Of a stretch of DNA of 64,000 nt, positions 12,701 to 58,358 are shown piece by piece. Position 1 is the stretch's first letter. Each line of letters opens with the position of its first letter. Where the stretch lies: contig SKCR01017759.1 in the NCBI GenBank assembly GCA_019454045.1, positions 54,526 to 118,525 on the forward strand, written 5' to 3'. Under the pieces are notes generated by a model, which was not told the origin of the DNA, made no database searches, and saw only the letters and a program-made list of their open reading frames with translations. The DNA is from Zanthoxylum bungeanum (taxonomy: Eukaryota; Streptophyta; Magnoliopsida; Sapindales; Rutaceae). The position numbers and the translations under genes are program-made.

Positions 12701-13099
12701 TAAGATTCTTAAAACAAGGTGGGCAAGAACAACCTGATTGTAGGACTTTAGCTGTAGTTTTATCTCCGCTGAAGTGTCCGCCGTATGGTGATGAATGACA
12801 ATGCTATAAGACACTGTTGACCTCCTCATGTGGTACACAATGTTTCAATAATTGATCAGCACAACGTTTGAATAGGTACGGTTCATCCAAGACATAGTGC
12901 TTGACTTCTTTGAAGAATTTCTTTCGTTATTGATATGTCCATTCCAACGGCCATTTCCCCGATACTATGTAGTTTACATAGTCAGCACACCAAGGGTCTT
13001 CCTACTGTTTGATGGCAAACAACTGTTCATCTGGAAAAGTTTCTTTGATTGTCAGTTCATTGCCAGTTGTTTCTCCATTCTCGAGCCTCGATAAGTGAT

Positions 13100-13565: not shown

Positions 13566-13574
13566 AGAGATTTA

Positions 13575-14500
13575 TCAATCTTGGAGAAGTTTTTGATAAA
13601 TCTCCTGTAAAATCCTGTATGTCCGAGAAAACTGTGAATCCCTTTTACGGATGATGGTAGAGGTAATTTTTTTTATTATCTCAATCTTTGCTTTGTCTAC
13701 CTCGATTCCCTTCTGTGAGATCTGATGTTCTAGGACAATTCCTTCCTGCACCATGAAATGGCATTTCTCACAATTGAGTACTAGGTTGATATCTTCGTAT
13801 CTTTGTAACATTTTTTCCATATTTTACAAGCAGTGGTCGAAAGAGTCTCCAAACACAGAAGAATCATCCATGAAAAACTCCATGCTTTATTCCAGCATGT
13901 CTGAAAAGATGGCCATCATGCAATGTTGAAATGTGGCAGGAGCATTGCAGAGTCCAAATGGCATACTGCGGAAAGTAAAAGTACCATACGGGCATGTAAA
14001 AGTGGTTTTCTCCTGATCTTCTGGGGTGATGGAAATCTGATTATACCCCGAGTATCCATCCAGAAAACAATAGAATTCATGTCCCACCAGTCTGTCTAAC
14101 ATCTGATCAATGAATGGTAGCGGGAAATGATCCTTCCTTGTTGCTTTGTTCAGCTTCTTGTAGTCTATGCATACTCTTCATCCAGTCACCATCCTTGTTG
14201 GAATCAGTTCATTCTTTTCATTGTGACTATAATCATTCCTTCTTTCTTGGGTACACATTACATAGGACTCACCCAAGTTCTATCAAAGATGGGGTAAATG
14301 ATGACGGCATCCAACCATTTGATAATTTCTTTCCTTACGACCTCTTTCATGATTAGATTTAGTCTTCGTTGATGCTCCACTGTGGCTTTTTACTTGTCGT
14401 TCATCAAAATTTCGTGCATGAAAAATGATGGACTAATGCCTCGAATGTCTTCTATAGTCCAGCCAATAGCTTTCTTGTGCTCGCGTAACACTGTCAACAA
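13575..14500 (-). pseudogene. Athila copy 1 reverse transcriptase
   Basis: Blocks seen: YCFLDGYSGYNQISI and FTCPYGTFTFRSMPFGLCNAPATFQ (13887-14102), the FMDD active site after an in-frame TAA (near 13885), then CEKCHFMVQEGIVLEH and the connecting domain. The FIDQMLDR junction is intact here, whereas copy 2 has a stop there. Upstream to about 14500 the N-terminal RT region (PISDNSWV- and PTRTVTRWR-like) is frame-shifted. Confidence 0.8.
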
Positions 14501-14615
14501 CTTATCTTCCTACACCATTGTTAGCGACGGAGAAATAATCACAGGTAAATCAAAAGAATTTTCCAAGTATGCATACTTGAGATGGCTCGGAAGTGGCTTT
14601 AGTTCGCTGCGGTGG

Positions 14616-14899
14616 TGTTGGACAATTATGACCCATAACGTCACTATTTGTGCAGATCATGGTGTTGTTGTACAAATTAACTATGTGACAAAGGAGATTG
14701 CACTCTTATCATTGTGATTAAATCAACTAGATATATAAATGATAGGAGGTCCCTATGATTTGTTCCTGGACGAAGAATGATATGAGACAGTATCAGTCCA
14801 CGAAGGATAAATCATTAAATATCCATAGTCAGAGTATTATCGAGAATAGACATCGATAAATACGTAAAAGACTAGTATTACACTTGTGCACGTTGTGAG
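14616..14899 (+). repeat. Element A 5' LTR, piece 1
   Basis: It begins TGTTGGACAATTATGACCC and is interrupted after GTGAG by the family B solo LTR. It continues at 16813. Confidence 0.85.
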
Positions 14900-34724: not shown

Positions 34725-35410
34725 TGTGGTTCTTCAATCGAGGGCTTGATTCGCTCCTTTTTCGGTAGTTCCAAACTTTCCACCTGTGGTGTCGATCTAA
34801 AGCGTGAGGCTTCTTCAAGATAGTTGATACATTCCAAAATCTCATCATCCAGTTCTCTATCAGTCATGTTGGTGATGCATGCTTCAAGTTTGTCAGTGGA
34901 ATGTTGCATTGCATCTGTGTTCCGGATGATACTATCTATTATATCAAGTCTGAAATATTCCTCCTCCTTTTCGTCATTCGGGAATTTCATGGCTTTGAAA
35001 AAATTGAATGTTACTTCTTGGTCTGTACCCTCATGGTTAGTTCTCATTTTTGTACATCAATAATGGTTCGACTTGTAGCCAAGAATGGTCTTCCGATGAT
35101 GATGGGTATGTCTTTGTTTTCCTCCATGTCAAGGACAATAAACTATGCTGGGAAAATGAATTTGTCGACTTTGACAAGCACATCTTCAACTACACCTCTC
35201 AGAAACGTCAGCGTCCTATCAGTAAGTTGCAGTGTGACTGAGGTGGGCTTTGTTTCTCCAATTTACAATTTCCTGTAAATAGACAAAGGCGTCAAGTTAA
35301 TACTCGCACCTAAATCACATAAAGCCTTACAGAAGTAATGTTCTCCTATGGTTCAAGGGATGGTGAAACTGCCAGGATCTTTCAACTTTGAGGGAAGCTT
35401 CATGTAGGCA
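34725..35410 (-). pseudogene. Athila copy 1 protease and linker region (continuation)
   Basis: Read on the - strand it matches copy 2 at about 45012-45680: QEVTFNFFKAMKFPNDEKEEE, the PI(I/L)LGRPF-type part and the upstream protease region. Similarity ends near 35410, where unrelated DNA begins, so gag and the 5' LTR of copy 1 are missing. Confidence 0.8.
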
Positions 35411-37047: not shown

Positions 37048-37966
37048 TGACCAACGTAAACACACACGTATAACGCAAGCGTACGTATCGTTCAAGTAGT
37101 ATAAAAAGTATCGATCCCACGAGGACTTAATACCTAAGCTATTAATTTTATGAGGTCGAATGATTACTAGTATCTAACAGGTTGTTTGATTGATTTGAAA
37201 TGGAGACGATTCTAAATTTAAAAACAAGTAAATAAAATTGTTCGAAAGTAGGTTTTAAGAAAATTCAATATTAAAAACTACCTAGGGTTGTGATTTCTTC
37301 CAATATCATTTTAAAAATGAAGTGGTTATCTTAAAGTTGGGTAATATATTGATTTATTAACCTGGAACACTAAATTATGTAAAAGCCTCTTCCGATGGTC
37401 AATTACAAATACCTAGTATAATCCAATTGAACCATATGTCTATGTCAACCAAATTACCTAGATTTATTAAGATTAAGTTCCAATTTGGCTACCCCCGCCC
37501 GACAGGTATATTCCTATCCTGTAAGGAAATCTATTAAAGGGTTATCTATCCTCAATGAAGATCGTGGGCTATTGAGTCTAAGGTCTTAAACTTAAAATCC
37601 CTATGTCTAGTTCATTTTAAGTTTCACAGTTCAATTTGTTTAATGGCCAGTTAATGAAAAAGCATTAAGATTAAGACTCAATAAATAAATCTTTATATTA
37701 CCCAAACTATAATCTAACCCCTTATAAACCGGTGATATTAGATTTCATCACAACCTTAGATAACTAACTTAGTTACAACACATAGCTAGGGCTGGTAAAA
37801 TAAAACACATAAAGTAAAAATGTCGAAAGTAAAAATGCGGTAAAGTAAAAATTGAAAAGTAAAATAAAATAAAATGAAATGCCAAGGTAAAAGGAATTAC
37901 TTTTACTATTTACTATTTTAGATATCTCCCATAAAATAATATATAAACTTGTGATAATATTACCAA

Positions 37967-38190
37967 CCAGCTATATAGGAAGTAACCTGATTAAGTCAAA
38001 TTAAGTCCAACCAGCCATTATGGCGGTAATATTTGTCCATAATCCATCCATAAAGGCGGAACCAAAATAAACCAGCCATAAAGGCAAAACCAAAATTAAA
38101 TTACCAACCGACCAATCTGGCGGTATCCTTGATTAGTCTGGTTTAAACCAGATTAAAATGAATTACCAACCGACCAATATGGCGGTATCA
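37967..38190. repeat. Six GCC mini-hairpin repeats in the Athila LTR
   Basis: Copies of a CCAACCAGCCATAWWGGCGGTA-like unit start near 37973, 38007, 38044, 38071, 38103 and 38164. Several are self-complementary, for instance GCCAT-T-ATGGC. The same series is in the other LTR at about 48413-48640. They lie downstream of the TATA box, so they would be in the transcript. Confidence 0.75.
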
Positions 38191-38472
38191 TTTTTAAGTA
38201 AAATTTTAAATAGTGAATATATTATTTTTAAGGAAGATTAATCTAAATAGTAATAGTAAAAGAATTACCTTTCACCCTAGTAGGGGGAAGTTACCTCCTC
38301 ATGGTAAATAGTAAAAACTGTAAAAAGTAAAGAAAGTAAAACACTATTATTACAAAAAGTAATTAAAATTAATTACAAAACTTAAATTAAAAGAAACTAG
38401 AGAGAGAAACTCCCTATTTACATCAAAGAAATGAGAGAGAATGGTACGACTGAAACTGAAATCTTGATCTCA

Positions 38473-38482
38473 ATTTATAGAC
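38473..38482 (-). promoter_or_regulatory. TATA box of the Athila copy 2 3' LTR
   Basis: On the - strand GTCTATAAAT stands about 85 bases downstream of the nearest CACGTG site. It is identical in the 5' LTR. Confidence 0.65.
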
Positions 38483-38497
38483 CCCGGTAGGCATCCA

Positions 38498-38534
38498 GCG
38501 TCGTGACGCCAAGGCCTTTGGCGTCGCGACGCCA
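38498..38534. promoter_or_regulatory. Long GC-rich palindrome upstream of the TATA box
   Basis: A nearly perfect inverse repeat with 17-base arms is centred on AAGGCCTT. Its right arm includes the perfect 16-base palindrome TGGCGTCGCGACGCCA (38519-38534). It lies 16-60 bases upstream of the TATA box in transcription direction and is kept in the other LTR (about 48947-48983). Confidence 0.7.
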
Positions 38535-38559
38535 GCTTCTTTTGGCATGGCTTGCTAAG

Positions 38560-38960
38560 GGCTTGACACGTGGCAATTCGGATAAGAAGATAAGGCGACA
38601 CGTGGCGAGGCGGCTAACAACTCAATTATTATGCTGACGTTGCGCTGACGTGGCGATGGCGACTGTCGGTACCATAGGATTGTGACACGTGGCACTTCAT
38701 GATTGGCTGATGATGACGTGGCAGTGAGGTGGCATGTTAAATTGGTCAACTGATGATGTGGACGCTGACGTGGAGTGACACATGGCACACGTGGCAATGG
38801 TGATTGTCGGCACCGTAGGATGATGACACATGGCACGGCGCACGTTAGTATTTCGACTGTGATGGTGACACGTGTCACGGTGCACGTTAGCAAAGTCAAA
38901 CTTCTCAATTCTGACCTGTTGACCCGACGCACATTAGCATGGCTTGGTGCACGTTAGGCG
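38560..38960 (-). promoter_or_regulatory. G-box/ABRE-like cluster in U3 of the 3' LTR
   Basis: CACGTG occurs at 38567, 38599, 38686, 38788 and 38869, mostly as ACACGTGGC. TGACGTGG-type sites lie near 38646, 38714 and 38767, and GCACGTTAG words repeat between them. ACGTGGC is the core of plant ABA-response elements bound by bZIP factors. The cluster sits about 85-390 bases upstream of the TATA box, where enhancers of LTR promoters lie. Confidence 0.7.
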
Positions 38961-39181
38961 TCGCGATGCCAAGGGCTTGCGCGTCGCGACGTGCCCAAAT
39001 TACCAAAATGCCCATTTTTCCAATTTTCACTGTTTTGTTCCAAATCACCTCCATAATGTCCTGAAACTTTATTTATCTACAAAATAACACAAAACACATC
39101 AAAATATTCACAAAGCTCAAGAAACAATACAAAATATTAGGTTAAATGAGTGGGAAATAGTGACAGTTTTACCACTCATCA

Positions 39182-39194
39182 CACCCCCAAACCT
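39182..39194 (-). other. Polypurine tract next to the Athila 3' LTR
   Basis: On the - strand AGGTTTGGGGGTG precedes the LTR start TGATGAG directly, as expected for the plus-strand primer. Confidence 0.75.
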
Positions 39195-39732
39195 AACATT
39201 TTGCTAGTCCTCGAGCAAAACACAAAATAAAATAACATAATAAAATTTAACTAAGCCACTTTCGTAGGGATCACAGTTGCATTTAGCGTATGCAACGAGC
39301 CTTTAAATCCATAGGTGTTCCTAGTGGACGAGTTGTAGTCTCGTGAGGGTTTACAACAATGATACCCACAAACATTTTACAAAAGTAAAAAGGTAGTGAA
39401 ACTAATGCACACAAAAGTAAAAAGACAAGCGAAAAGAGAATAAAGAAGTTAGTGACTAATCAGGTGAAACTTCTACTCCAAGTTACTAGTTGTTTTGTTT
39501 CATTCCAAATTACCGAATAAGTAAATTCTCCGATTATATTTACCATTCTCCATATACACAGCCAAAAAAATATTAATCAACTCATTTTTGCCCACAACAG
39601 TCACAAGTGCAGTTGATAAGAGAGTAATATTTTTGTCCTAAAGTTTTATCAGATTTCACACTTTTTTGCAGCAATTGAATAATTTTTCGAATTTTTTTCT
39701 TTGATTTTTGATTGATTTTTTTTATTTATATA

Positions 39733-39840
39733 CAATATCTTCCGTCTATGTAGCGAGTGTTGGGTCAGTGGCTCCCAAACCAGTTGGCTTTAGGGCACTA
39801 GGTGTTAAGACACCCCTACGGACTTAATTACTCAGACTTC

Positions 39841-39897
<57 letters not shown>

Positions 39898-40010
39898 CAG
39901 CATCTTTGATCCATATAGCGAGCTTTGGGCCAGTGACTCCCAAACCAGTTGGCTTTAGGGCACTAGGTGTTAAAACACCCTTACAGACTTAATAACTCGG
40001 ATATCAGATT
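39733..40010 (-). repeat. Tandem repeat pair with (AT)n in the Athila 3' untranslated region
   Basis: Two units of about 110 bp (39733-39841 and 39899-40008) share CCCAAACCAGTTGGCTTTAG and GGCACTAGGTGTTAA. Each contains a small hairpin around GGTGT and ACACC. They flank an uninterrupted AT run at 39843-39894. Tandem repeats after the last ORF are common in Athila/Tat elements. Confidence 0.8.
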
Positions 40011-40433
40011 TTTTTTTACTGCATTGCTTTTTGAGATGCTTCCTCCAATTAACTAGAGCACTGAATATTACAAACTTTTCAATTACAGTTCATGTCCGTA
40101 TATTACTATGCATGTTGATAATACCTGTCAACTGAGCATATGAAGATCCATTTTAGTTAGTTTTATGGAGAATTCACAAATTAAATAATTCAAAAGGAAA
40201 TAAATAAAAATTAACTTGTTTCGAAATAGGTTTGAGATACGTCTCAGGAGTGGAAATTCCTTACTCAGCTATCTCTTACCAATTTCACATTTTTAGTAAA
40301 AAAAAAACACAAAAACACAAAATATTTTTGTAATTTTAGAAAAATTTTCAATTTTTTTGTATTTTTCAAAAAATTTTGGACTAAGAATAAAAAAAACACA
40401 CAAATTTAAAACAAGGTAATAATCAACTAATTC

Positions 40434-40450
40434 CCTCCCCCAAACCTAAA
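40434..40450 (-). other. Second polypurine-tract-like sequence after the LOG-type gene
   Basis: On the - strand TTAGGTTTGGGGGAGGG resembles the PPT at 39182-39194 but lies 1.25 kb upstream of it. Copy 1 has the equivalent near 10170. It is about 85 bases past the LOG-type stop. Confidence 0.5.
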
Positions 40451-40531
40451 TGAGACATTGTCCCCAATGTCTTAAATAGTAGAAGAAGAGTTTAGAAGAT
40501 AATACTTGGTTAGCTGAAATTCTACAAGAAA

Positions 40532-41185
40532 TTAAAGGTTAAGATCCAGATTAACACGATGCCTCTTACCACGATCGTCCTCGGACCAATTTATCTTTGA
40601 AAGGATAGGGTCAACTTGTGGTTCATAGGCTAAGAGTTGGTCTATTAGATCCGGAGCAGTTCTGGCAGTAAAGAAGAGTTCTTTTAAAGGTTTTGACACG
40701 AACCCATTTCTCCGGGCATCATCAAGAAACACACAAAGAAAATCATAAAATCCATCAACGTTAAACAGCCCAATTAGCTTCTGGTGTATGTTCAGGTTCG
40801 TCCAAAATAGTACTATAAAAATTTCCTGCAATGTACCCAAGCCACCTGGCAAAGCAATAAAAGCATCAGCACGGTTAATCATTTCTACCAGTCGTTCAGA
40901 CATACCTGGCACGATCAGTTCCTCTTCGTTTGATGATTCAATAAGATATGCTTCTGCCAAGGGTTTTGGGATGATTCCCAAAACATGACTACCTCCTTCC
41001 TGTACGACCATTGAAACGATCCCCATTAGTCTAAGATTGCCTCCGCCATATACTAAGTGCATATTCCTTGCAGCTAAGACTCGACCCAATTCCTGTGCTG
41101 CCTCTACGTATTGTGGTTTAGTACCAACACTACTACCGTAAAACACACAGATGTTTTCAACTCGTTTTCTTGAAGTGGCTTCCAT
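40532..41185 (-). CDS. Intronless LOG-type cytokinin riboside 5'-monophosphate phosphoribohydrolase, captured by Athila
   Basis: LOG enzymes cleave ribose 5-phosphate from cytokinin nucleotides and release active free bases. The 217-codon frame (ATG start) is full length for the family and has no introns, unlike plant LOG genes. Motifs: ICVFYGSS near residue 12, VYGGGN at 45-50, the arginine of the MxxR block (R98), PGGLGTLQE at 113-121 with the catalytic-type glutamate E121, then GLFNVDGFYD. Deviations: the usual RKA after MxE is RLV, and GLMG is RLMG at residue 52. The C-terminus ends LDLNL, an LxLxL pattern like EAR motifs. It lies 255 bases past the accessory ORF and before the PPT, inside the element. 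Against copy 1, the four changes G to R, S to F, A to T and P to L are all C-to-T or G-to-A, so activity may be lost. Confidence 0.85.
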   Translation of the reverse strand: MEATSRKRVENICVFYGSSVGTKPQYVEAAQELGRVLAARNMHLVYGGGNLRLMGIVSMVVQEGGSHVLGIIPKPLAEAYLIESSNEEELIVPGMSERLVEMINRADAFIALPGGLGTLQEIFIVLFWTNLNIHQKLIGLFNVDGFYDFLCVFLDDARRNGFVSKPLKELFFTARTAPDLIDQLLAYEPQVDPILSKINWSEDDRGKRHRVNLDLNL

Positions 41186-41440
41186 GTTTTACTCTGGATG
41201 TCTTCAAAAGTGCAATGATGAGTTGAATTTATAACACCTGAAAAGGGTGAGTAAAATAATAGCACTAGTACCTGCCAAATGACAATTATTAGTTAATAGT
41301 AAAATAAATCGTGGTAGTCAAAAAGGTCTGGATCCTGTCGGAGAAAATAAAAGAAAACAACAAAACAAATCACAATTATTAGGAAAAGACAAAGAGATAT
41401 AATATTTACAAAACTTTACAACTTGATTGACGTCTATGCG
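41186..41440 (-). promoter_or_regulatory. Leader of the captured LOG-type gene with splice-acceptor-like site
   Basis: On the - strand ACTCACCCTTTTCAG followed by GTGTTATAAATTC lies about 55 bases before the LOG ATG. It is a pyrimidine-rich AG site and is also present in copy 1 (ACTCACCCATTTTTCAG). It could serve a spliced subgenomic RNA or be the relic of a host leader intron; TTATAAAT next to it could also be a TATA box. Confidence 0.4.
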
Positions 41441-41983
41441 TCAGGGACAAGCTTCCCATTCAATTTTCTTATAAATTGGCAAACAAGGTCTTTTTTTGTC
41501 AGATTCCCAAGACTTAACTGTTGTCTTTCTTTTTGAAATTGTGTATGTAATTTGCGAAAGGCTATGTGAACATATCCACTGGGGATGCGTCTCAAGAGTC
41601 GAAGATATATCATCTAAAGACTCCTTACTCAAGCCATCCCTAATGAATTTAATTTTGTCTTCACGATTATCAGACACCATTCCTAAAGAATGACAATGAG
41701 TATTGCAATTCCAACGTGCAAATTTGTAACAAACACCCATTTGCTTAGCTCTACGTTTCTTTGCATAAGTGCTTCTTCCAAAACCAGGCAGATGTGAAAT
41801 AAAAGAGTCAGAAGACTCACATACCAATCAGACTCGTGCTTCAATTACCCAACGAATGTCATTAGGAACACCATGGATTGTCAGTAACCTAATTCGTTCC
41901 AAGCGAGCTTTGTAAACTTTCATCAGAGATTTTTGAGGGAGAGAAGAAAATTGCTTGTGAAGATTTGCGAGAGCTTCTTCCAT
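41441..41983 (-). pseudogene. Cysteine-motif accessory ORF of Athila copy 2
   Basis: From the ATG at 41983 the frame reads about 50 codons, meets TGA at 41828-41830 (copy 1 has CGA there), continues in the same frame through the VCYKFARWNCNTHCH region, and loses frame after LETHPQ. In its original form it would be about 180 residues, basic in the middle (YAKKRRAKQ) with a C-x2-C-x4-C-x3-C-like motif; here the second cysteine is phenylalanine. I do not recognise the family. It occupies the place where Athila elements often carry an env-like ORF, but I see no signal peptide or membrane segment. A TTTTTGCAG acceptor-like site precedes the ATG. Confidence 0.6.
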
Positions 41984-42119
41984 CTTGAAATGTCTTAATC
42001 TGCAAAAACTAAACACACAAAATTAAATCACATAAAATCACAATATATACAAAAATTGCATGGGTTGCCTCCCTGCAAGCGCTAAGTTTAAAGTCGTCAG
42101 CTAGACGTGACTGCCTGAA

Positions 42120-43282
42120 CGTTATGCTGGATCTGAAAGTTGACACTTTTTTTTGTCGCTCAAATGATTCTCCCCAATAGTGCTTGACACGCTGACTATT
42201 AACTTTGAATGTGTTGTTGGTATTGGGATCCAGTAACTCAACCGCTCCATAAGGTAAAACCTGAGTGATCACAAATGAACCTGACCACCTAGATTTCAAA
42301 TTTTCAGGGAACAGTTTCAACCTCGAGTTGTACAATAACACCTGCTGCCTTGGTTCCAACTGTCTGTGCACTATTTTTCGGTCATGACATTTCTTTGTAT
42401 AATCTGGCATTCTCATAAGACTGTAGGCGAAATTCCTCCAATTCGTTAAGTTGGTGAAGTCTTTTCTCTCCTGCAGCCTGTGAATCAAAATTCAACTTTT
42501 CAGTGCCCAACACGCCTTGTGCTCAAGCTCAACTGAAAGATGGCACCTTTCCCAAACACCAATCGATATGGGGACATACCAATTGGTGTCTTGTAAGCTG
42601 TCCGGTAGGCCCATAATGCATCATCTAGTTTTGTTGACCAGTCCCTCCTTGTTGATCCAACGGTTCTTTCTAGGATTGTTTTGATTTCCCTGTTTGAAAC
42701 CTCAACCTGTCCATTTGACTGTGGATGGTAAGCTGTGGCAACCTTGTGAGTAACTCCATATTTGGATAGAAGTGCATCAAAGTATCTGTTGCAGAAATGC
42801 GAGCCACCATCGCTGATGATTGTACGAGGTGTTCCGAACCGAGTGAAAATGTTCTTTTTCAGGAATTTGATCACCACTTTTGAATCATTGGATGGCAATG
42901 CAATTGCTTCAACCCATTTGGAGACGTAGTCTACAGCAACCAGGATGTACATGTTTCCGAATGATGGAACAAACGGTCCCATGAAATCTATACCCCACAC
43001 ATCGAATATTTCCACTTCTAGAATGTTTTGCAATGGTCCTTCGTTTCTCCTGGAAATATTTCCCGTTCTATGGCACCTGTCACATTGAAAAGCAAAAAGA
43101 TAAGCATCTTTAAAAAGAGTGGGCCAGAACAAACCTGATTGTAGGACTTTGGCTGCAGTTTTGTTTCCGCTGAAGTGTCCGTCATATGGTGATGAATGAC
43201 AGTGCTGCAAAACACTGTTGATTTCCTCATATAGAACACATCGTCTTAATAATTGATCAGCACAGTGTTTGAACAGGTACAA
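42120..43282 (-). pseudogene. Athila copy 2 integrase
   Basis: The zinc-binding N-terminus (HHxx...[13 protein letters not shown]), core ([46 protein letters not shown]) and C-terminal chromatin-binding part ([21 protein letters not shown]) are all readable. The frame breaks between 42500 and 42488 and is open upstream for 260 codons. Catalytic aspartates and glutamate of the DDE triad are present. In both copies it is followed by GGGAGGCAACCCATGCA (- strand), a sequence common after pol in plant gypsy elements. Confidence 0.85.
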
Positions 43283-43389: not shown

Positions 43390-43860
43390 CTAAGGGACTT
43401 CCTGTTGTTTCATGGCAAACAGCTGTTCATCTGGAAAATTTTCTTTGATTGATAGATCTTTGTCAGCTGTTTCTCCACTCTCAAGCCTCGATAAGTGATC
43501 TGCTACCTGGTTTTCTGTCCCTTTCCTGTCTCGAATTTCCACGTCAAATTCTTGTAGAAGAAGTATCCAACGGATCAATCTGGGTTTCGCAACTTTCTTC
43601 GTGATCAAGTATTTGATTGCTGAATGATCTGTGTAGACCACCACTTTGGCACCCAACAGATAGGAGCAGAATTTGTCAATAGCGTACACAACTGCGAGCA
43701 ACTCCTTTTCGGTGGTTGTGTAGTTGAGTTGAGCTTCATTTAGGGTTCTGCTGGAATAATAAATGGTGTGGAAAATCTTTGCTTTACGTTGTCCCAAAAC
43801 TGCACCTACAGCAAAGTCACTAGCATCGCACATCACTTCAAATGGAAGGGTCCAGTCTGG
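43390..43860 (-). pseudogene. Athila copy 2 RNase H
   Basis: The open part shows [41 protein letters not shown] and [11 protein letters not shown], a complete RNase H set of acidic residues. A frame change separates it from RT on one side and from integrase on the other. Confidence 0.85.
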
Positions 43861-43899
43861 TGCTACAATGATGGGGGCAGAGACCAGTTTCTGTTTTAA

Positions 43900-44820
43900 G
43901 ATCTCGAAAGCTTCCTAGCATTCTTTGGTGAAGTTGAAAGGCACATCCTTCTCCAGAAGATTGCATAGAGGTTTAGCAATCTTGGAAAAGTCTTTGATAA
44001 ATCTCTTGTAAAAACCTGCATGTCCAAGAAAACTACGAATACCTTTAAGTGATGTTGGTGGAGTTAGTTTTTCAATTGTCTCTATCTTTGATTTGTCTAC
44101 CTCAATCCCCTTTTGTGAGATCCGATGTCCAGAACAATGCCTTCCTGCACCATGAAGTGGCATTTCTCCCAGTTGAGTACCAAGTTTGTATATTCGCACC
44201 TTTGTAACACCTGTTCCAAATTTTACAAGCAGTGGAAAAAGAATCTCCAACACAGAAAAGTCATCCATGAATACCTCCATACTCTACTCCAGCATGTCTG
44301 AGAATATGGCCATCATGCAACACTGGAATGTGGCAGGGGCATTACATAATCGAAATGGCATCCTGCGGAAAGCAAAAGTACCATAGGGACATGTAAATGT
44401 GGTTTTCTCCTGATCTTCTGGTACGATGGCAATCTGATTGTATCCTGAATATCCGTCAAGAAAGCAATAAAATTCATGTCCCGCCAATCTGTCTAACATC
44501 TAGTCAATGAACGGTAGCGGAAAATGGTCATTTCTCATGGCTTTGTTCAGCTTCCTGTAGTCCATGAATACTCTCCATCTAGTCACCGTTCTTGTTGGGA
44601 TTAGCTCGTTCTTTTCATTGGTAACCACAATAATTCCTCCTTTCTTCGGCACACACTGCATAGGATTTACCCAACTATTGTCTGAGATGGGGTAAATGAT
44701 GCCAGCATCCAACCATTTGATGATTTCTTTCTTCACGACTTCCTTCATGATTGGATTGAGTCTCCGTTGATGTTCCACTATGGGTTTGTACTCATCGTTC
44801 ATCAGGATCTTGTGCATGAA
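43900..44820 (-). pseudogene. Athila copy 2 reverse transcriptase
   Basis: Blocks in order: KEIIKWLDAGIIYPISDNSW, CVPKKGG, WRVFMDYRKLNKA, YCFLDGYSGYNQIAI, CPYGTFAFRRMPF, then VFMDDFSV. In-frame TAG codons follow FID (44499 side; copy 1 has CAG) and MLE (about 44283; copy 1 has TAA). This DYRKLNKA...FLDGYSGYNQI pattern is the Athila signature I rely on. Confidence 0.85.
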
Positions 44821-44849
44821 AAATGATGGACTAATGCCTCGAATGTCTG

Positions 44850-45620
44850 CTATAGTCCAGCCATGGCTTTCTTGTGCTCTCGTAACACTCTCAGTAGCTT
44901 TTCTTCCTGCTCCAATGTTAGTGAAGAAGAAATAATAACAGGCAATTCAGAAGAGTTTCCAAGAAATGCATACCTGAGATGACTCGGAAGTAACTTTAGC
45001 TCCAACTGTGGTGGTTCTTCAATCGAAGGCTTGATTCGATCTTTCTTTGGCAGTTCCAAGCTTTCAACTGGTGGTGTTGCTTTGAATCGGAATGGTTTGT
45101 CAAGGTAGTTGATACATTCTAGGATTTCAGCATCTAGCTCGCTCTCAGTGATGTTGGTGATGCAAGCTTCAAGTGTATCTGTGGGATTTGGCTCAGTATT
45201 TTGAACGATACTGTCAACAACATCAACTCTGAAGCATTCTTCTTCCTTTTCATCGCTCGGGAATTTCATGGCTTTGAAAACATTAAAGGTCACTTCTTGG
45301 TCCTGCACTTTCATGGTCAGTTCTCCTTTTTGCACATCAAACACAGTTTTACCTGTAGCCAAGAATGGTCTCCCAAGAATGATAGGTATTTCTTTATCTT
45401 CTTCCATGTCAAGGATGATGAAATCTGCGGGGAGAATTAGTTTGTCTACTTTGACCTGCACATCTTCAACTACACCTCTTGGAAATGCGAGTGTTCGGTC
45501 AGCAAGTTGCAATGAAACTGAGGTAGGCATTGCTTCTCTAATCTGCAGTTTCCTGTAAATAGAAAAAAGGCATCAAGTTAACACTGGCTCCTAAATCACA
45601 TAAAGCCTTACCGATGTAAT
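44850..45620 (-). pseudogene. Athila copy 2 aspartic protease and linker
   Basis: The active-site block ALCDLGASVNLM (DLGA in place of DTGA, as in Athila) is readable near 45570-45605. It is followed by ADRTLAFPRGVVEDV and IPIILGRPFLATG in the 226-codon frame. The frame ends early at HKKAMAGL through a one-base loss; copy 1 keeps HKKAIGWTI there. Confidence 0.8.
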
Positions 45621-45739: not shown

Positions 45740-47400
45740 TCTGTTTTCGTGAAAGAATGTCTTTCATGAATTTGACATAACTGGGCATTTCTTCCAAGGC
45801 TTCTGCAAATGGGATGTTGATGTGCAGCTTTTTGAAAACCTCCAGGAATCGAGCAAACTGCTTGTCCAGTTTGTTTTTCTGAAGACGCTGAGGAAAGGGT
45901 GGAGGTGGAGTGATCTGTTCTTTTTCCTATGCTTCTTTTTCCTTTTCTTCTTTTTCCTCCATCTGTTGCTCTGCTTCTTTTGGAACATCTTCAATGGTTG
46001 CCTTGATTCCAACATCTTTGTTGATTTCAGTACCATTTTTCAAGGTGATGGCCTGGCATTGCTCATTCCCTCGGTTCCTTGGATTTGGTTCTGTATTGCT
46101 GGGAAGATTTCCTGGTGGTCTGTAACTCTGAGCATTGGCTAGTTGTCCAATCTGATTCTCCAATGCTTTGATAGAAGCAGATTGGCTTTGAAATATAGCA
46201 TCATACGCTGCTTGTTGCTTTTTGAACATCTCTGCAATCCATTCTTTCATTTCTGGTGCTTTTTCAAACTCCTGGCTTTTGTTCTATTGCTGGAATTCAG
46301 GTTGTGGATAGTTCTTTTGCCCTGAATTGTTGCTCCATGAGAAATTATGATGATTTCTCCACCATGGGTTGTAGGTGTTGGAATATGGATTATTCCCCTG
46401 TCTGTTGAAATTGTTGACATAATTCACCGTCTCTTCAAGTTGGTTTAGTTCTGGTGCTCCTCCATATGGTGAACTTGTGGATCCAGTGGTAAGAGTCTCC
46501 ATGAATTTGCATATCTGATCTAGTTTGGCGTTGACTGTTGTATTGGCTCCACTTTCATAAATTCCTGCAATTCTTTGGATCATGCTCCTTTCTGTTGGCC
46601 ACAAGGAATTGTTGTTGGCCATTTCTTCGATTAGTTCCCAGGCTTGATCTTCTCCTTTCGCCATTAAATCTCCTCCAGCAGCAGCATCGATTGTGGTTCT
46701 CATTATTCCAGAAAGTCCATTATAGAATGTTTGGACTTGAAGCCATTTTGTAATCTCATGGTGAGGACATTTCCGGAGCAAATCTTTGTACCTTTCCCAA
46801 GCTTCGTAGAGAGTTTCTGATTCTTGTTGTACAAAGGATGTGATGTCCTTCCTCAGCTTTCCAGTTCTGGCTGGTGGAAAGTATTTTGCAAGAAATTTGG
46901 TGGCTTAAGTGTTCCAAGTTGTGATGGAACCTGCTGGTAGTGAATGTAGCCAAGCTTTAGCTCTTTCCTTCAAGGAGTATGGGAAAACACGCAATCTCAT
47001 TGCTTCTTCAGCTTCTCGGTTGTAATTGAAAGTGCCGCAAACTTCCAGGAAGTTGCTGATGTGGACATTAGGATCTTCAGTTGCATTTCCCCCAAACTGC
47101 ACTAACTGCTGAATCATCTAAATGCAAGTTTTGATGTCACCTACATTTACTGGTAATGGAGGAAGTACAATATAGGAAATGAGTTTGTCAACCACCGGAA
47201 TGGTTCTGTCTCGAATGGAATTGGTGGTGCAACCTCCAAAGGTTCAGGTTCCATGTTGACTAAAGCTTCTTGGCCTTCTCGCCTTTCCCTTCTCAACTGT
47301 CTGATGGTTCTTTCAATTTCCGGGTCAAGCGGTCTTAGTTCAAAGCTTCTGGTTCGTCTCATGAAGTTTCTGAGAAGCTGAAACAAAAGAAAACAAAAAA
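45740..47400 (-). pseudogene. Athila copy 2 gag
   Basis: Overlapping broken frames give an Athila-type gag: an arginine-rich start (RRTRSFELRPLD, from about 47356), DPNVHISNFLEVC, LKERAKAWLHSLPAGSI, then CPHHEITKWLQVQTFYNGL and AAAGGDLMAKGEDQAWELIEEMA (46284-46781). A glutamine-rich and acidic part follows, with NQIGQLA (45927-46250). At least five frame breaks are needed to read it through. I see no CCHC zinc knuckle, as is usual for this lineage. Confidence 0.8.
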
Positions 47401-47471: not shown

Positions 47472-47489
47472 TCCCCGGCAACGGTGCCA
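47472..47489 (-). other. Primer binding site of Athila copy 2 (tRNA-Asp type)
   Basis: On the - strand TGGCACCGTTGCCGGGGA begins six bases after the 5' LTR end. It differs at two positions from TGGCGCCGTCGCCGGGG, the complement of a plant tRNA-Asp 3' end, the primer used by many Athila/Tat elements. Confidence 0.85.
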
Positions 47490-48920
47490 AAAACTTGACC
47501 GGCGTAAACACACACGTGTATAACGCAAGCGTACGTATCGTTCAAGTAGTATAAAAAGTATCGATCCCACGAGGACTTAATACCTATGCTATTAATTTTA
47601 TGAGGTCAAATGATTACTAGTATCTAACAGGTTGTTTGATTGATTTGAAATGGAGACGATTCTAAATTTAAAAAAAGTAAATAAAATTGTTCGAAAGTAG
47701 GTTTTAAGAAAATTCAATATTAAAAACTACCTAGGGTTGTGATTTCTTCCAATATCATTTTAAAAATGAAGTGGTTATCTTAAAGTTGGGTAATATATTG
47801 ATTTATTAACCTGGAACACTAAATTATGTAAAAGCCTCTTCCGATGGTCAATTACAAATACCTAGTATAATCCAATTGAACCATATGTCTATGTCAACCA
47901 AATTACCTAGATTTATTAAGATTAAGTTCCAATTTGGCTACCCCCGCCCGACAGGTATATTCCTATCCTGTAAGGAAATCTATTAAAGGGTTATCTATCC
48001 TCAAGGAAGATCGTGGGCTATTGAGTCTAAGGTCTTACACTTAAAATCCCTATGTCTAGTTCATTTTAAGTTTCACAGTTCAATTTTTTTAATGGCCAGT
48101 TAATGAAAAAGCATTAAGATTAAGACTCAATAAATAAATCTTTATATTACCCAAACTATAATCTAACCCATTATAAACCGGTGATATTAGATTTCATCAC
48201 AACCCTAGATAACTAACTTAGTTACAACACATAGCTAGGGCTGGTAAAATAAAAGACATAAAGTAAAAATGTCGAAAGTAAAAATGCGGTAAAGTAAAAA
48301 TTGAAAAGTAAAATAAAATAAAATGAAATGCTAAGGTAAAAGGAATTACTTTTACTATTTACTATTTTAGATATCTCCCATAAAATAATATATAAACTTG
48401 TGATAATATTACCAACCAGCTATATAGGCGGTAACCTGATTAAGTCAAATTAAGTCCAACCAGCCATTAAGGCGGTAATATTTGTCCATAATCCAGCCAT
48501 AAAGGCGGAACCAAAATAAACCAGCCATAAGGCATAACCAAAATTAAATTACCAACCGACCAATCTGGCGGTATCCTTGAATAGTCCGGTTTAAACCAGA
48601 TTAAAATGAATTACCAACCGACCAATATGGCGGTATCCTTTTTAAGTCAAATTTTAAATAGTGAATATATTATTTTTAAGGAAGATTCATCTAAATAGTA
48701 ATAGTAAAAGAATTACCTTTCACCTTAGCAGGGGGAAGTTACCTCCTCATGGTAAATAGTAAAAACTGTAAAAAGTAAAGAAAGTAAAACACTATTATTA
48801 GAAAAAGTAATTAAAATTAATTACAAAACTTAAATTAAAAGAAACTAGAGAGAGAAACTCCCTATTTACATCAAAGAAATGAGAGAGAATGGTACGACTG
48901 AAACTGAAATCTTGAACTCA

Positions 48921-48930
48921 ATTTATAGAC
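48921..48930 (-). promoter_or_regulatory. TATA box of the Athila copy 2 5' LTR
   Basis: GTCTATAAAT on the - strand, in the same context as at 38473-38482. This copy would drive the element's own transcript. Confidence 0.65.
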
Positions 48931-49009
48931 CCCGGTAGGCATCCAGCGTCGTGACGCCAAGGCCTTTGGCGTCGCGACGCCAGCTTCTTTTGGCGTGGCT
49001 TGCTAAGGG

Positions 49010-49340
49010 CTTGACACGTGGCAATTTGGATAAGAAGATAAGGCGACACGTGGCGAGGCAGCTAACAACTCAATTATTATGCTGACGTTGCGCTGACGTG
49101 GCGATGGCGACTGTCGACACCATAGGATTGCGACACGTGGCACTTCATGATTGGCTGATGATGATATGGCGGTGAGGTGGCATGTTGACTTGGTCAACTG
49201 ATGATGTGGACGCTGAGGTGGAGTGACACATGGCACACATGGTGATGGTGATTGTCGACACCGTAGGATAATGACACGTGGCACGACGCATGTTAGCATT
49301 TCGGCTGTGATGGTGACACGTGCCACTGCGCACGTTAGCA
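49010..49340 (-). promoter_or_regulatory. G-box/ABRE-like cluster in the 5' LTR
   Basis: CACGTG occurs at 49015, 49047, 49134, 49275 and 49317. Four sites correspond to those of the 3' LTR. One site of the 3' LTR (38788) is CACATG here, and the site at 49275 is CACATG in the 3' LTR. Confidence 0.7.
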
Positions 49341-49377
49341 AAGTCAAACTTCTCAAATTCTGACCCGTTGACCCGGC

Positions 49378-54401: not shown

Positions 54402-56198
54402 CTATAGCCAGTCACTCAAGCATCTAATACCCGAACTATGTATGTGTCGTTCAAAAACTTGCTGAAGAACAGCCTTCGTCAGCGGATCTGCAATGTTGTC
54501 ATCTGATGTGACCTTCTCGACCTTTACATCGCCACGATGTATAATCTCCCGAATCAGATGGTAACGTCGAAGAACATGCTTGGACCGTTGATGAGACCTT
54601 GGTTCCTTAGCCTGTGCTATAGCCCCGTTATTGTCACAATACAATGGAACGGGCTCAGCTGCTAACGGAACTACTCCTAATCCGATTAGGAACTTTCGGA
54701 TCCAAACTGCCTCCTTTGCTGCTTCAGATGCAGCGATGTACTCCGCTTCTGTTGTTGAATCGGCAACAGTATCTTGCTTGGAAGATTTCCAGCTCACTGC
54801 TCCGTTATTCAAACAAAAAATGTACCCGGATTGCGACTTGTAGTCATCCTTGTCGGTTTGGAAACTTGCATCGGTATACCCAGATACCGCAAGTTCTCCT
54901 CCTCCATAAATTAAGAAAGCATCCTTAGTTCGTTTAAGATACTTAAGGATATTCTTAACTGCTATCCAGTGACCTTCACCTGGATCGGCCTGATAGCGAC
55001 TGCACATGCTCAAAGCATATGAGACATCAGGTCGTGTACATATCATGGCATACATGATCGATCCGACTGCCGAGGCGAACGGTATCCGACTCATGTTGTC
55101 TCTCTCTTCCTGAGTCTTAGGACACATGTCCTTAGACAGAGAGGTACCACGTACCATCGGAACCAATCCCCTCTTGGATTGTTCCATGTTGAATCGCTTC
55201 AACACTTTATCAATGTATGTACTCTGGGAGAGTCCAAGCAGCTTTCTAGATCTATCCCGGTAGATCTTTATTCCAAGAATAAAGGCTGCTTCTCCCAGAT
55301 CTTTCATGGAGAATTTTAATGAAAGCCAAGCTTTCACCGACGTTAGCATGGGAATGTCATTGCCTATAAGCAATACGTCGTCGACATAAAGGACAATAAA
55401 AGTAAGTGCTCTCCCACTAACCTTCTTGTATACACAAGGGTCATCTGCGTTTTGCACGAAATCATATTCTTTTATGATCTCATCAAAACGCTGATTCCAT
55501 GACCGTGATGCTTGCTTCAATCCATAAATGGATCGATTTAACTTACAAACCTTGTTTGCAAGTCTAGGTACGATAAAACCGTCAGGCTGTTGCATATAAA
55601 CATCCTCCAAAAGGTTTCCGTTAAGGAAAGCGGTTTTAACGTCCATCTGCCATATCTCGTAATCGAAATATGCAGCTATTGCAAGCATTATCCGAATGGA
55701 TTTAATCATGGCAACGGGTGAGAAGGTTTCGTCATAATCAATACCATATTGTTGACGATACCCCTTCGCTACAAGCCTAGCTTTGTACGTTTGTACGTTG
55801 CCATCCATGTCGGTCTTCTTCTTGAAGATCCATCTGCATCCAATAGGCTTTACGCCTTCTGGTGCATCAACCAGTGTCCAAACTTGGTTGGCGTACATGG
55901 AATCCATCTCGGACTTCATGGCTTCTTGCCATAAAGCGGAATCGATATTTTGTATCGCTTCCTCATACGTAGCCGGCTCATTATCCTCAATAAGATTAAT
56001 ATCTACATGAGGTGAGATCAGGAACCCATACCTCTCAGGTACTGTTCTGACTCTCTCCGACCTACGCGGTCCTTGTGTATGTGAAGTTTGTGGTACAGAC
56101 TCATCCCGGACGGTCTGTTCTTGTTCCGTCGTTGATTCATTGCCAGGAACAGTATCACTACGATCTTCATCGAGTTCTACTTTCCTCCCACTTACCAC
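54402..56198 (-). CDS. Element B pol, third segment: reverse transcriptase and RNase H
   Basis: The 598-codon frame encodes the copia RT and RNase H. Residues 119-150 show the conserved RT start (IGCRWIFKKK, YKARLVAKGY). The first catalytic aspartate is in WQMDVKTAFLNG (about 184-195) and the active site is YVDD at 271-274. RNase H follows with GYTDASF (about 440), TTEAEYIAAS (about 482), LYCDNNGAI (about 519) and ADPLTK near 571. The frame ends 14 bases before the LTR, as usual. It is the downstream part of one polyprotein: the apparent start is only the first methionine after a frameshift near 56200-56215, where one base is lost after CATTTTTCTT. All catalytic residues appear intact. Confidence 0.9.
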   Translation of the reverse strand: MVSGRKVELDEDRSDTVPGNESTTEQEQTVRDESVPQTSHTQGPRRSERVRTVPERYGFLISPHVDINLIEDNEPATYEEAIQNIDSALWQEAMKSEMDSMYANQVWTLVDAPEGVKPIGCRWIFKKKTDMDGNVQTYKARLVAKGYRQQYGIDYDETFSPVAMIKSIRIMLAIAAYFDYEIWQMDVKTAFLNGNLLEDVYMQQPDGFIVPRLANKVCKLNRSIYGLKQASRSWNQRFDEIIKEYDFVQNADDPCVYKKVSGRALTFIVLYVDDVLLIGNDIPMLTSVKAWLSLKFSMKDLGEAAFILGIKIYRDRSRKLLGLSQSTYIDKVLKRFNMEQSKRGLVPMVRGTSLSKDMCPKTQEERDNMSRIPFASAVGSIMYAMICTRPDVSYALSMCSRYQADPGEGHWIAVKNILKYLKRTKDAFLIYGGGELAVSGYTDASFQTDKDDYKSQSGYIFCLNNGAVSWKSSKQDTVADSTTEAEYIAASEAAKEAVWIRKFLIGLGVVPLAAEPVPLYCDNNGAIAQAKEPRSHQRSKHVLRRYHLIREIIHRGDVKVEKVTSDDNIADPLTKAVLQQVFERHIHSSGIRCLSDWL

Positions 56199-56203
56199 TG
56201 CAT

Positions 56204-56752
56204 TTATAAAATCCTTCTCAAGAAAAATGCTTGTAGAGCAACAAATACTTTGTTCTCTTGTGTGTGGTGATAGAAGTAATATCCTTTGGTTTCCCTAGGA
56301 TATCCTACGAAAAGGCATTTATCAGATTTGGGTTCAAGTTTGGTACCTTCCAAACGTTTAACATATGCCCAGCATCCCCAAATCTTCAGGAAAGAGAAAC
56401 CTGGTTTCCTTCCTGTCCATATTTCATATGGAGTCTGTTCAACAGACTTCGACGGTACCTTATTCAAAATAAGTATAGCACTGTTTAATGCGTATCCCCA
56501 GAAGGATATTGGTAGCTCAGTGCGACTCATCATTGACCTTACCATGTCTAACAAGGTGCGGTTTCTCCGTTCGGACACACCGTTTAATTGCGGTGTTCCA
56601 GGAGGAGTCCACTGTGAAAGAATACCATATTCTTTCAAGTAATCTTGAAACTCATAACTTAAGTATTCGCCACCACGGTCTGACCGTAATGTCTTAATAC
56701 TCTTCCCTGTTTGTTTCTCCACTTCGTGTCGAAACTTCTTTGAATTTCTCAA
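56204..56752 (-). CDS. Element B pol, second segment: integrase core and C-terminus
   Basis: The frame of 182 codons starts inside the integrase. It holds the second catalytic aspartate in LRSDRGGEYLS and the glutamate in NGVSERRNRTLLDMVRSM. The C-terminal GKR-type region follows, including YEIWTGRKPGFSFLKIWGC and CLFVGYP. A one-base shift near 56745 separates it from the gag-protease-integrase frame, and another near 56210 from RT. It would not be made as a separate protein. Confidence 0.85.
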   Translation of the reverse strand: MRNSKKFRHEVEKQTGKSIKTLRSDRGGEYLSYEFQDYLKEYGILSQWTPPGTPQLNGVSERRNRTLLDMVRSMMSRTELPISFWGYALNSAILILNKVPSKSVEQTPYEIWTGRKPGFSFLKIWGCWAYVKRLEGTKLEPKSDKCLFVGYPRETKGYYFYHHTQENKVFVALQAFFLRRIL

Positions 56753-58358
56753 AAGTTTCCGACTTGTGTCTCATAAGATACACATAACCGTAACGAGATG
56801 CATCATCTGTGAAGGTTACGAAGTAGTGAAATCCACCTCTAGCCTGGCTAGACATGGGCCCGCATACGTCAGTATGAACGAGAGCCAACAGTTCTGTGGC
56901 ACGTTCACCTTTACCGCTAAAAGGTGATTTAGGCATTTTGCCTAAAAGACAAGATTCGCAGACGTCATATGAATTGGGATCAAATTCGTCCAAGTACCCA
57001 CTCTTCGAAAGTGTGGATATGCGAGTCTTGTTGATGTGTCCTAGACGACAATGCCACATATAAGCTTCATCTTTTAGATTACTTCTTTTGAGCCTTTTGT
57101 TTGTCATTTTAGGAGATTCATTTATATTCAAAATATAAAGACCGTTATTTGCAACAGCTGTGCAAATTTCTGCATCATTTTTATATAAATAACACCCAGT
57201 GTTTCTAAATACAAAAGTGTAACCCTGCTGGGTTAACAAGGATACAGATATAATATTCCTAGTTAAACTAGGTACAAAATAACAGTTCAAAAGTTTAAGT
57301 ACATGCCCTGAGGGCAGTTCTAAAACAAAAGTCCCTACGGCCAAAACAGCAACATGTGTTCCGTTTCCGACCCGTAGATCCATCTCCCCTGACGCCAACA
57401 CCCTGCTATCCTGCAGATCCTGCACATCAGTACAAATATGAGCACCACAACCAGAATCAAAAATCCAATTTTTAAAACTAGAAGTATTCATATTTATCTC
57501 AATAACAAACATACCAGAGGCGATAGCCTTGCCAGCCTTGATATCCTCCCTCTGCCCTTTGCCCATTCGGCAGTCACGTTTCCAGTGACCCCTCTTGCCG
57601 CAGTTGAGGCAGATGTCGCGAGATTTGTCCTTTGGCTTCCTAGAAGCCACTGTCAACTTGCCTTTGCCCTTGTTCTTGAACTTCTTCTTCCTCGCACCTC
57701 CAATTGCCTTGGGCCCAGCCCTTGGCGCATGAGAGGTCGATGCATAATGCGCCTCGCGCTTGCTCCCCTTTAGGAGTTCCTTTTCGGACTCCTTCAGCAC
57801 GGACAACAACTCTCCAAGAGTGTCGTCAGTGTCCATCAACTTATAGTTGATGATGATTTGTTTCCAAGTATCGGGTAGCGATTGTAATAGCATATCAATC
57901 GTCAGCTCTGCCTCCAAGACAATGCCCATCTTGGCTAACTCATCTATGTCAGCGATCATTTGAGTCCCGTGGGCCTCAACTGATGCGCCGTCTGTCATCC
58001 GGGAGCGGAAGAGTTTCCTTACTAGCTCGTACCTCTCCATCCGCTTGTTGGTGCGGTGGAGATCACGCAATCTTGCCATCATGTTATAGGGATCCAAGTC
58101 CCTGTTCTGGCGTCTGAAATGCTGGGTCATTGCAGCTAGCATAACTGACTGAGCTTGGTCACAATCGTCACTATGAGTCTTCCATAACTCTAGCTCCAGT
58201 GGCTCAGTGGGTTTAGGCGGGAGAGGTCTCTGAATAGTATACAGTACCCTCTCAGCCCCAAGCACTATCTTGAGGTTCATTTCCCAGTCGGCAAAGTTTG
58301 TCCCTTTGAAGACATTATCGCCCATGATTATGTCGCGGACATTACCCTTGCCAGTCAT
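56694..58358 (-). CDS. Element B gag, protease and integrase N-terminus
   Basis: The 554-codon frame starts with ATG at 58358. Gag (about 1-245) begins with a typical copia gag N-terminus (FKGTNFADWEMNLKIVL). A CCHC zinc knuckle CLNCGKRGHWKRDC lies at 250-263 after a lysine-rich stretch. The protease active site is DSG at 301-303 (WIFDSGCGAHIC). The integrase HHCC zinc site follows (H436, H441, C467, C470) and the first catalytic aspartate is in VHTDVCGP (D497). The last 12 or so residues are out of frame because of a shift near 56745. It encodes the particle protein and the N-terminal enzymes of the retroelement. Confidence 0.9.
   Translation of the reverse strand: MTGKGNVRDIIMGDNVFKGTNFADWEMNLKIVLGAERVLYTIQRPLPPKPTEPLELELWKTHSDDCDQAQSVMLAAMTQHFRRQNRDLDPYNMMARLRDLHRTNKRMERYELVRKLFRSRMTDGASVEAHGTQMIADIDELAKMGIVLEAELTIDMLLQSLPDTWKQIIINYKLMDTDDTLGELLSVLKESEKELLKGSKREAHYASTSHAPRAGPKAIGGARKKKFKNKGKGKLTVASRKPKDKSRDICLNCGKRGHWKRDCRMGKGQREDIKAGKAIASGMFVIEINMNTSSFKNWIFDSGCGAHICTDVQDLQDSRVLASGEMDLRVGNGTHVAVLAVGTFVLELPSGHVLKLLNCYFVPSLTRNIISVSLLTQQGYTFVFRNTGCYLYKNDAEICTAVANNGLYILNINESPKMTNKRLKRSNLKDEAYMWHCRLGHINKTRISTLSKSGYLDEFDPNSYDVCESCLLGKMPKSPFSGKGERATELLALVHTDVCGPMSSQARGGFHYFVTFTDDASRYGYVYLMRHKSETFEKFKEVSTRSGETNREEY

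Follow-up and report, generated by a model that had tools for sequence, protein, structure and literature searches.

Does a cytokinin-activating gene of the LOG type belong to a plant retrotransposon, or is it the chance passenger of a single insertion? The question is raised by a 64,000-nucleotide stretch of the Zanthoxylum bungeanum genome (hereafter, the window). An initial annotation of the letters alone had placed a 217-codon LOG-type frame between the integrase and the 3' LTR of an Athila retrotransposon, and it proposed that a host LOG transcript had been captured before two copies in the window split. In this study, we favor with moderate confidence the reading that LOG is an old accessory gene of a Ty3/gypsy lineage, whose product is a functional enzyme of the LOG type that benefits the element.

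The element and its two accessory frames

Copy 1 in the window has an LTR pair, a primer binding site, a polypurine tract, and the domain order PR-RT-RH-INT of a Ty3/gypsy LTR retrotransposon (Table 1). The two LTRs described earlier do flank the element and are 97.0% identical across 1882 columns, with the 5' LTR truncated at its outer end. The primer binding site is of the tRNA-Asp type, which related lineages share. The lineage is probably Athila/Tat-like Ty3/gypsy; the Pfam ATHILA ORF-1 model (PF03078) was absent from scans of the gag-side frames. Copy 1 is decaying, and its gag-pol lies in at least 11 stop-to-stop pieces of at least 70 aa.

Table 1. Coordinates of the element features in the window
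Feature	Position	Strand	Remarks
Copy 2, older, with integrase, carlavirus-type frame, and a decayed LOG	10164-14616	-	Resumes at 34726-35401 past nested insertions
3' LTR	37048-39181	-	Starts TGATGAG and ends TCA; immediately preceded by a polypurine tract at about 39182-39196
Non-coding spacer, LOG to 3' LTR	39182-40531	-	AT microsatellite; 122-bp segment present twice (83%)
LOG-type frame	40532-41185	-	217 aa, no intron; tail RHRVNLDLNL; PGGxGTxxE motif; 10 private changes at sites conserved in other copies
Leader preceding LOG	41186-41436	-	Pyrimidine-rich stretch ending CAG directly upstream of LOG in most of 20 contexts
Carlavirus-NABP-like accessory frame	41437-41983	-	182 aa in relatives; one stop and one frameshift in window copy
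Integrase	42009-43282	-	H2C2 and rve core 42500-43282 (rve E 1.6e-18); C-terminal piece 42009-42488
RNase H piece	43393-43914	-	
Protease and reverse transcriptase pieces	44287-45572	-	Several broken frames
gag pieces (Retrotrans_gag)	46287-47117	-	
Primer binding site	47473-47489	-	TGGCACCGTTGCCGGGG
5' LTR	about 47496-49375	-	Outer end missing (truncated at 49375)

The LOG frame of copy 1 is complete and intronless, and it occupies the slot between integrase and 3' LTR in the element's orientation, as first annotated. The cut-offs of PF03641 (E 8.7e-31; 107 bits, cut-off 27) and TIGR00730 (E 3.2e-45; 154 bits, cut-off 96) were passed. The NCBIfam NF058542 cytokinin-LOG equivalog cut-off was missed (104 vs 300 bits). 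Arabidopsis 2a33 was the top solved relative by sequence (E 1.6e-52) and the top PDB match of the modeled fold (mean pLDDT 83; E 3.0e-20); the tail was predicted to be disordered. The PGGxGTxxE motif was found in the window LOG and in all of 20 genome contexts. The window LOG deviates at 10 positions that are the same in 19 or more of the 20 other copies, and G52R in the GGGxxGLMG loop is among these private changes; because of them, the LOG of copy 1 may be inactive. The intactness of this frame is itself a weak sign of function: by hand arithmetic, about 1.2 lesions are expected per 654 bp at the gag-pol lesion density, and the probability of none is about 0.3.

The stretch between LOG and integrase holds a separate frame that the initial annotation had missed and that resembles carlavirus nucleic-acid-binding proteins. 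The gathering scores of Pfam Carla_C4 (PF01623) and Viral_NABP (PF05515) were passed by all three relatives scanned (P0121, P0130, and P0139), and the window piece reached 25.3 bits for Carla_C4 (cut-off 20.9). The match to the carlavirus proteins is local, short, and weak (E about 1e-6 to 1e-4). No viral relative of the frame was found among 63 pattern hits in IMG/VR; a LOG search of the same database returned two distant loci (27%). The top PDB match of the carlavirus-type frame had an E value of 0.64, and its structure model (mean pLDDT 50.5) was too poor for fold comparison. The CAG-ending, pyrimidine-rich stretch ahead of LOG is a possible splice acceptor.

Copy number and deletion derivatives

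A PF03641 search of the 3.96-Gb genome gave 47,331 first-look candidates, and all 150 of those scored matched at E <= 2.6e-33; the control family FKBP_C gave 99 candidates and 47 matches. With Arabidopsis LOG3 as the query, all 150 scored places were near full-length in a single frame, with 47-50% identity. All of these were element copies, and the host LOG genes were swamped. Once the PF03641 and LOG3 lists were united, LOG frames lay on at least 287 contigs, and LTR-like DNA was found downstream of LOG in 20/20 chosen contexts. LOG has therefore spread with the element, as had been suggested, on a scale far beyond that first envisaged.

These counts bear on two other origins. The first, which the initial annotation had named as its own potential refutation, is a segmental duplication of one insertion adjoining a host LOG gene, other copies of the element lacking LOG. 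Hundreds of scored places hold full-length frames without introns, and these frames, together with the LTR-like DNA downstream of LOG in the 20 chosen contexts, speak against it. No point in its support was found, and we rejected it as exceedingly improbable. The second, a one-off transduction of a host gene of the Bs1 type, predicts one or a few copies and fails in the face of hundreds of scored full-length copies and tens of thousands of candidates.

The carlavirus-type frame was present in 17 of the 20 contexts. A pol-deleted form accounted for 8 of the 20: one common junction removes RT, RNase H, and the integrase core, and gag, the carlavirus-type frame, and LOG are retained. In three further contexts, the LOG-only derivatives L011, L019, and L023, LTR-like sequences flank LOG, and gag, RT, and the carlavirus-type frame are all absent. 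The derivatives did not form clean clades in the LOG tree, where copies were not grouped by structural form, so the 3' module may have been exchanged between copies, or the derivatives may have arisen more than once. In this tree, 10/28 inner branches were starred, and two of the loci appear in duplicate (L003 = L011, L010 = L012); L010 and L012 were labelled differently, which adds one false change. Both the 20 contexts and the 12 short loci come from lists ordered by LOG score, which biases LOG presence in derivatives and a low LOG pN/pS toward the accessory-gene reading.

Coding constraint and separation from host LOGs

The window pair provides a comparison that was not picked by LOG quality. 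Copy 2 matches copy 1 at 83% (10799-14616), 80% (10164-10802), and 79% (34726-35401) identity, and no LTR of the copy 1 kind was found beside it within the window. Its LOG is decayed, as first described: the N-terminal part is gone, and one stop and frame breaks are present. The processed, intronless LOG belongs to the element and was already present in it when the two copies split. Between the copies, LOG gave a dN of 0.148 and a dS of 0.413 (dN/dS 0.36; Fisher p 1.1e-5), the carlavirus-type frame a dN of 0.166 and a dS of 0.348 (p 0.0067), and the integrase a dN of 0.094 and a dS of 0.595. Both accessory frames thus look as if they had been preserved by natural selection.

Alternatively, a successful lineage may have captured LOG a single time and copied it along since without benefit, the constraint being a leftover of the host gene or an artefact of copy choice. 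Some observations agree with this: LOG carries a stop or frame break in 7 of the 20 contexts in our alignments, the window LOG is altered at conserved sites, and the low pN/pS of the chosen loci (0.13-0.25) is pushed down by their selection on LOG score. The constraint in the window pair is free of that selection, and the element-type LOGs of Populus, Paulownia, Reevesia, and Xanthoceras, although only 47-62% identical to one another or to the window frame in sampled pairs, are in many cases full-length with motif and tail, more than would be expected to survive unconstrained drift. We consider a benefit-free passenger unlikely.

The earlier proposal of a tree with host LOG proteins was followed, and a 100/100 branch split the element-type LOGs (36 rows) from 20 sampled host LOGs. 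The element-type LOGs often end in a basic tail with LxLxL in the last nine residues (88 of the 120 listed relatives, vs 0 of the 120 listed host LOGs). LxLxL is an EAR-type repression motif. The PGG-x-GT-xx-E string occurs in 107 of the 120 listed relatives and is near-universal where the sequence is not truncated at the motif. Populus proteins named LOGL10 group with the window LOG; since element LOGs such as these are publicly annotated as host cytokinin genes, LOG gene-family counts may be inflated.

The tail, its predicted disorder, which would suit a docking peptide, the distance from host LOGs, and the missed equivalog cut-off would all be in keeping with a repurposed enzyme. In that case, the LOG fold would act on non-cytokinin nucleotides (e.g., immune-signal nucleotides) or serve as a nuclear adaptor through its tail, and cytokinin would not be raised. 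The retained motif, as in catalytic LOGs, and the top structure matches to plant and bacterial LOGs argue against such a change, which we judge quite improbable.

Proposed role and comparison with known systems

Under the accessory-gene reading, the intronless LOG frame occupies the env position, behind the carlavirus-type frame. In intact copies, a subgenomic RNA, once spliced, would encode a phosphoribohydrolase of the LOG type, which would release active cytokinin, or a different base, inside the cells that express the element. This release might promote the division or competence of those cells through which new copies enter the germ line, and the virus-type protein might help the element RNA escape silencing. 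A bolder version, which we put forward tentatively and rate as rather unlikely, is a long-carried two-gene cassette for host manipulation. The virus-type NABP would shield the RNA against silencing, and a nucleus-directed, cytokinin-activating enzyme would recruit a co-repressor of the host through its LxLxL tail. Expressing cells would divide and transmission would be favored; stripped derivatives would persist with LOG as their sole gene, copied in trans.

Should intact copies make an active LOG, a mobile element at tens of thousands of candidate places would carry a hormone-activating enzyme. It would then offer a direct and testable example of how a plant transposon influences the division of host cells. 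Its partnership with a protein of the plant-virus type would mean that plant retroelements, like retroviruses, put together accessory cassettes.

The initial annotation knew of no described LOG-bearing retrotransposon. In excerpts of PMC9289625, a YgdH (LOG) domain is reported in Ty3/gypsy consensuses of Citrus sinensis, C. clementina, and Populus trichocarpa (the last below the n5 filter), with a citation of Steinbauerova et al. (2011). LOG in gypsy elements is therefore not new. As far as literature searches went, the carlavirus-type second frame, the separation of element-type LOGs from sampled host LOGs, and the dN/dS of 0.36 are new; the basic LxLxL tail and the pol-deleted and LOG-only derivatives may be so too.

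As in the window element, the LOG-family domain of the gypsy elements in those excerpts lies inside the element; the excerpts give it as a match only and describe no second frame of the carlavirus type, no tail, no coding constraint, no derivatives, and no copy number. The elements covered in the consulted part of the review PMC7264820 share the accessory position, orientation, and many-copy presence, but the products of the window element are a host-type enzyme and a plant-virus-type protein instead of a transmembrane env-like protein. Plant LOG1/3/8 phosphoribohydrolases share the fold, length, and PGGxGTxxE with the element LOGs, which differ in their identity (36-58% in sampled pairs), own group, basic LxLxL tail, and intronless scored genome copies. 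The Phalaenopsis gypsy elements described in the excerpts of PMC9289625 carry an AlkB m6A demethylase that is active in vitro. They, too, form a lineage with a fixed host-derived enzyme, although the enzyme and the plant group differ.

The element in the window and its accessory frames

A 217-codon LOG-type frame between integrase and the 3' LTR had been proposed in the initial annotation, and it is borne out by a complete ORF that matches PF03641 (E 8.7e-31) and TIGR00730 (E 3.2e-45); its closest solved structure is Arabidopsis 2a33 (E 1.6e-52). The LTRs of this main element (copy 1) share 97.0% identity over 1882 columns (K 0.031), which corresponds to an insertion age of approximately 1.2-2.2 million years at substitution rates of 1.3e-8 and 7e-9. 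The gag-pol region of copy 1 is broken. Its LOG retains the final Glu of PGGxGTxxE and departs at 10 positions, including C16Y, G52R, E120Q, S127F, and P137L, from a consensus residue held by at least 19 of the 20 other copies. This copy would not be expected to encode a good enzyme. The second copy, likewise announced with a decayed LOG, was recovered in two parts, and its LOG is indeed decayed.

Features of the LOG-bearing elements in the window
Feature	Position	Strand	Remark
3' LTR	37048-39181		with the polypurine tract ahead of it; both beyond LOG
LOG frame	40532-41185	minus	complete ORF, 217 aa; PF03641, TIGR00730, and 2a33 matches
Carlavirus-type frame	41437-41983		between integrase and LOG; Carla_C4
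Integrase	42500-43282		5' of LOG in element order
Primer-binding site (PBS)	47473-47489
5' LTR	~47496-49375		outer end truncated
Copy 2	10164-14616, resumes 34726-35401		79-83% identical to copy 1

Approximately 20 kb of other repeats inside copy 2 (14617-34725), present in several copies of 75-99% mutual identity, form a nested insertion cluster. In the LOG-to-LTR spacer of copy 1, a 122-bp segment occurs twice (39723-39844 and 39888-40009; 83% identity), flanking an AT microsatellite. Long minus-strand frames lie at 54402-58358; one of them, 598 aa long (54402-56198), matches RVT_2, a reverse transcriptase of copia type, at E 1.1e-75 and is far better preserved than the frames of the LOG element.

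The carlavirus-type frame, a second accessory frame, is interrupted by one stop and one frameshift and scores 25.3 bits against Pfam Carla_C4 (cut-off 20.9). Three of its 49 relatives listed at E <= 0.1 were scanned with Pfam, and all three exceeded the Carla_C4 and Viral_NABP cut-offs. The match that hints at homology with carlavirus proteins is short and weak. No virus relative was found in IMG/VR and no match in PDB (best E 0.64); the structure model (pLDDT 50.5) was of no use. Silencing suppression is a possible role. Literature titles and abstract openings showed no earlier description of a retrotransposon frame of this kind.

Abundance and structural forms in the host genome

A PF03641 search of the host genome (3,956,113,105 bases, 51,709 contigs) gave 47,331 first-look candidates, which is not a true count; 150 were scored, all with E <= 2.6e-33, and three had a stop within the match. 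The same type of search with the multi-gene family FKBP_C gave only 99 candidates (all scored, 47 matching); hence, the loose first look alone does not explain the LOG number, as far as a thin, single-family control can tell. Arabidopsis LOG3 as the query yielded 58,158 candidates. All 150 scored places spanned query residues 2-8 to 205-210 in a single frame at 47-50% identity and are therefore intronless. The two scored lists have 12 contigs in common and at least 287 in union.

Twenty contexts of at most 10 kb were fetched from about every seventh of the 150 PF03641 places; two rows near contig ends were substituted, and two contexts are still cut by contig ends. LTR-like DNA lay downstream of LOG in all 20; in 13 of them it also lay upstream, as far as the fetched stretch reached. 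The carlavirus-type frame was immediately upstream of LOG in 17 contexts, and the integrase core was present in six; L015 alone had reverse transcriptase (RT) and RNase H without the integrase core. Eight contexts share one common junction at which RT, RNase H, and the integrase core are deleted, and keep gag, the carlavirus-type frame, and LOG. L011, L019, and L023 lack gag, RT, and the carlavirus-type frame and have LOG flanked by LTR-like sequences; only the 3' part is seen in L021 and in L014, which a contig end truncates. LTR pairs within contexts were 84-99% identical over 593-1774 columns, and those reaching 99% (L018, L028, L029, and others) suggest recent insertions of LOG-bearing elements.

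Among 12 further, shorter loci (L003 lies within L011, and L010 within L012), five had the carlavirus-type frame, six an integrase C-terminal remnant alone before LOG, and one neither. Together, these make 30 distinct places, of which 21 have the carlavirus-type frame and nine lack it. Since every place was located through its LOG, the frequency of LOG-free relatives cannot be read from this set. In a LOG tree built from the fetched loci, copies did not cluster by structural form; either the 3' module would have been exchanged or the forms would have arisen repeatedly. The LOG and carlavirus-type frames of L007 (C22167) and L008 (C27586) have identical match values and may represent a single insertion in two haplotypes, or a recent duplication.

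Constraint on LOG and its neighbors

Copies 1 and 2 form a pair chosen independently of LOG quality. Between them, dN and dS were 0.148 and 0.413 for LOG (182 codons aligned), 0.166 and 0.348 for the carlavirus-type frame, and 0.094 and 0.595 for integrase (Fisher test of synonymous versus non-synonymous differences, p = 1.1e-5, 0.0067, and 7e-21, respectively). Since these values include neutral decay after insertion, constraint before insertion was stronger. In the contexts, whose copies were selected by LOG score, pooled LOG pN/pS was 0.13 (seven full or near-full), 0.25 (eight pol-deleted), and 0.23 (three LOG-only), and the window LOG against these 18 gave 0.35. For frames not themselves selected, the same loci gave 0.24 (six full) and 0.39 (eight pol-deleted) for the carlavirus-type frame and 0.10 (three full) and 0.29 (seven pol-deleted) for gag. 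Stops and frameshifts were absent from 13 of 20 context LOGs in the present alignments and from five of 16 carlavirus-type frames, one of the five (L027) being the reference. Intact copies probably make an accessory LOG-type enzyme that is retained because it helps the element; cytokinin release might favor dividing or germ-line-competent cells. That LOG is a mere passenger seems unlikely, and its use as a repurposed enzyme or adaptor somewhat less likely still.

Kinship of element-type LOGs and relation to known elements

Proteins of Xanthoceras, Populus, Paulownia, and Reevesia were among the 120 LOG relatives listed of 2991. For a tree, 35 of these 120 and the window frame (36 element-type rows) were set against 20 of 120 listed host LOGs, all of LOG1/3/8 type, with labels taken solely from the search that found each row; one branch with 100/100 support separates the two sets in this unrooted tree. 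LxLxL, an EAR-type motif, occurs within the final nine residues of 88 of 120 element-type and none of 120 host relatives listed; some of the other 32 are truncated and some have close variants, e.g. LDIDLN. The tail is predicted to be disordered; a run of K and R can act as a nuclear signal. Populus P0042, P0045, and P0076 are element-type LOGs carrying the host gene name LOGL10 in public records, and such naming probably inflates LOG family counts. Xanthoceras P0018, P0024, and P0054 are proteins of 290-359 aa; LOG core stretches occur twice each in P0018 and P0024, which look like fused neighboring copies or gene-model errors.

The initial annotation knew of no LOG-bearing retrotransposon, a view that does not stand. 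PMC9289625 reports the YgdH domain, which LONELY GUY proteins contain, from consensus gypsy elements of two Citrus species and, once a filter was dropped, of Populus trichocarpa, in agreement with Steinbauerova 2011 as cited there; the class was therefore already known. Additional ORFs are reviewed in PMC7264820, and aORFs of sunflower Athila are the subject of PMC11728184. To this, the present analysis adds the anatomy and evolution of LOG-bearing elements.
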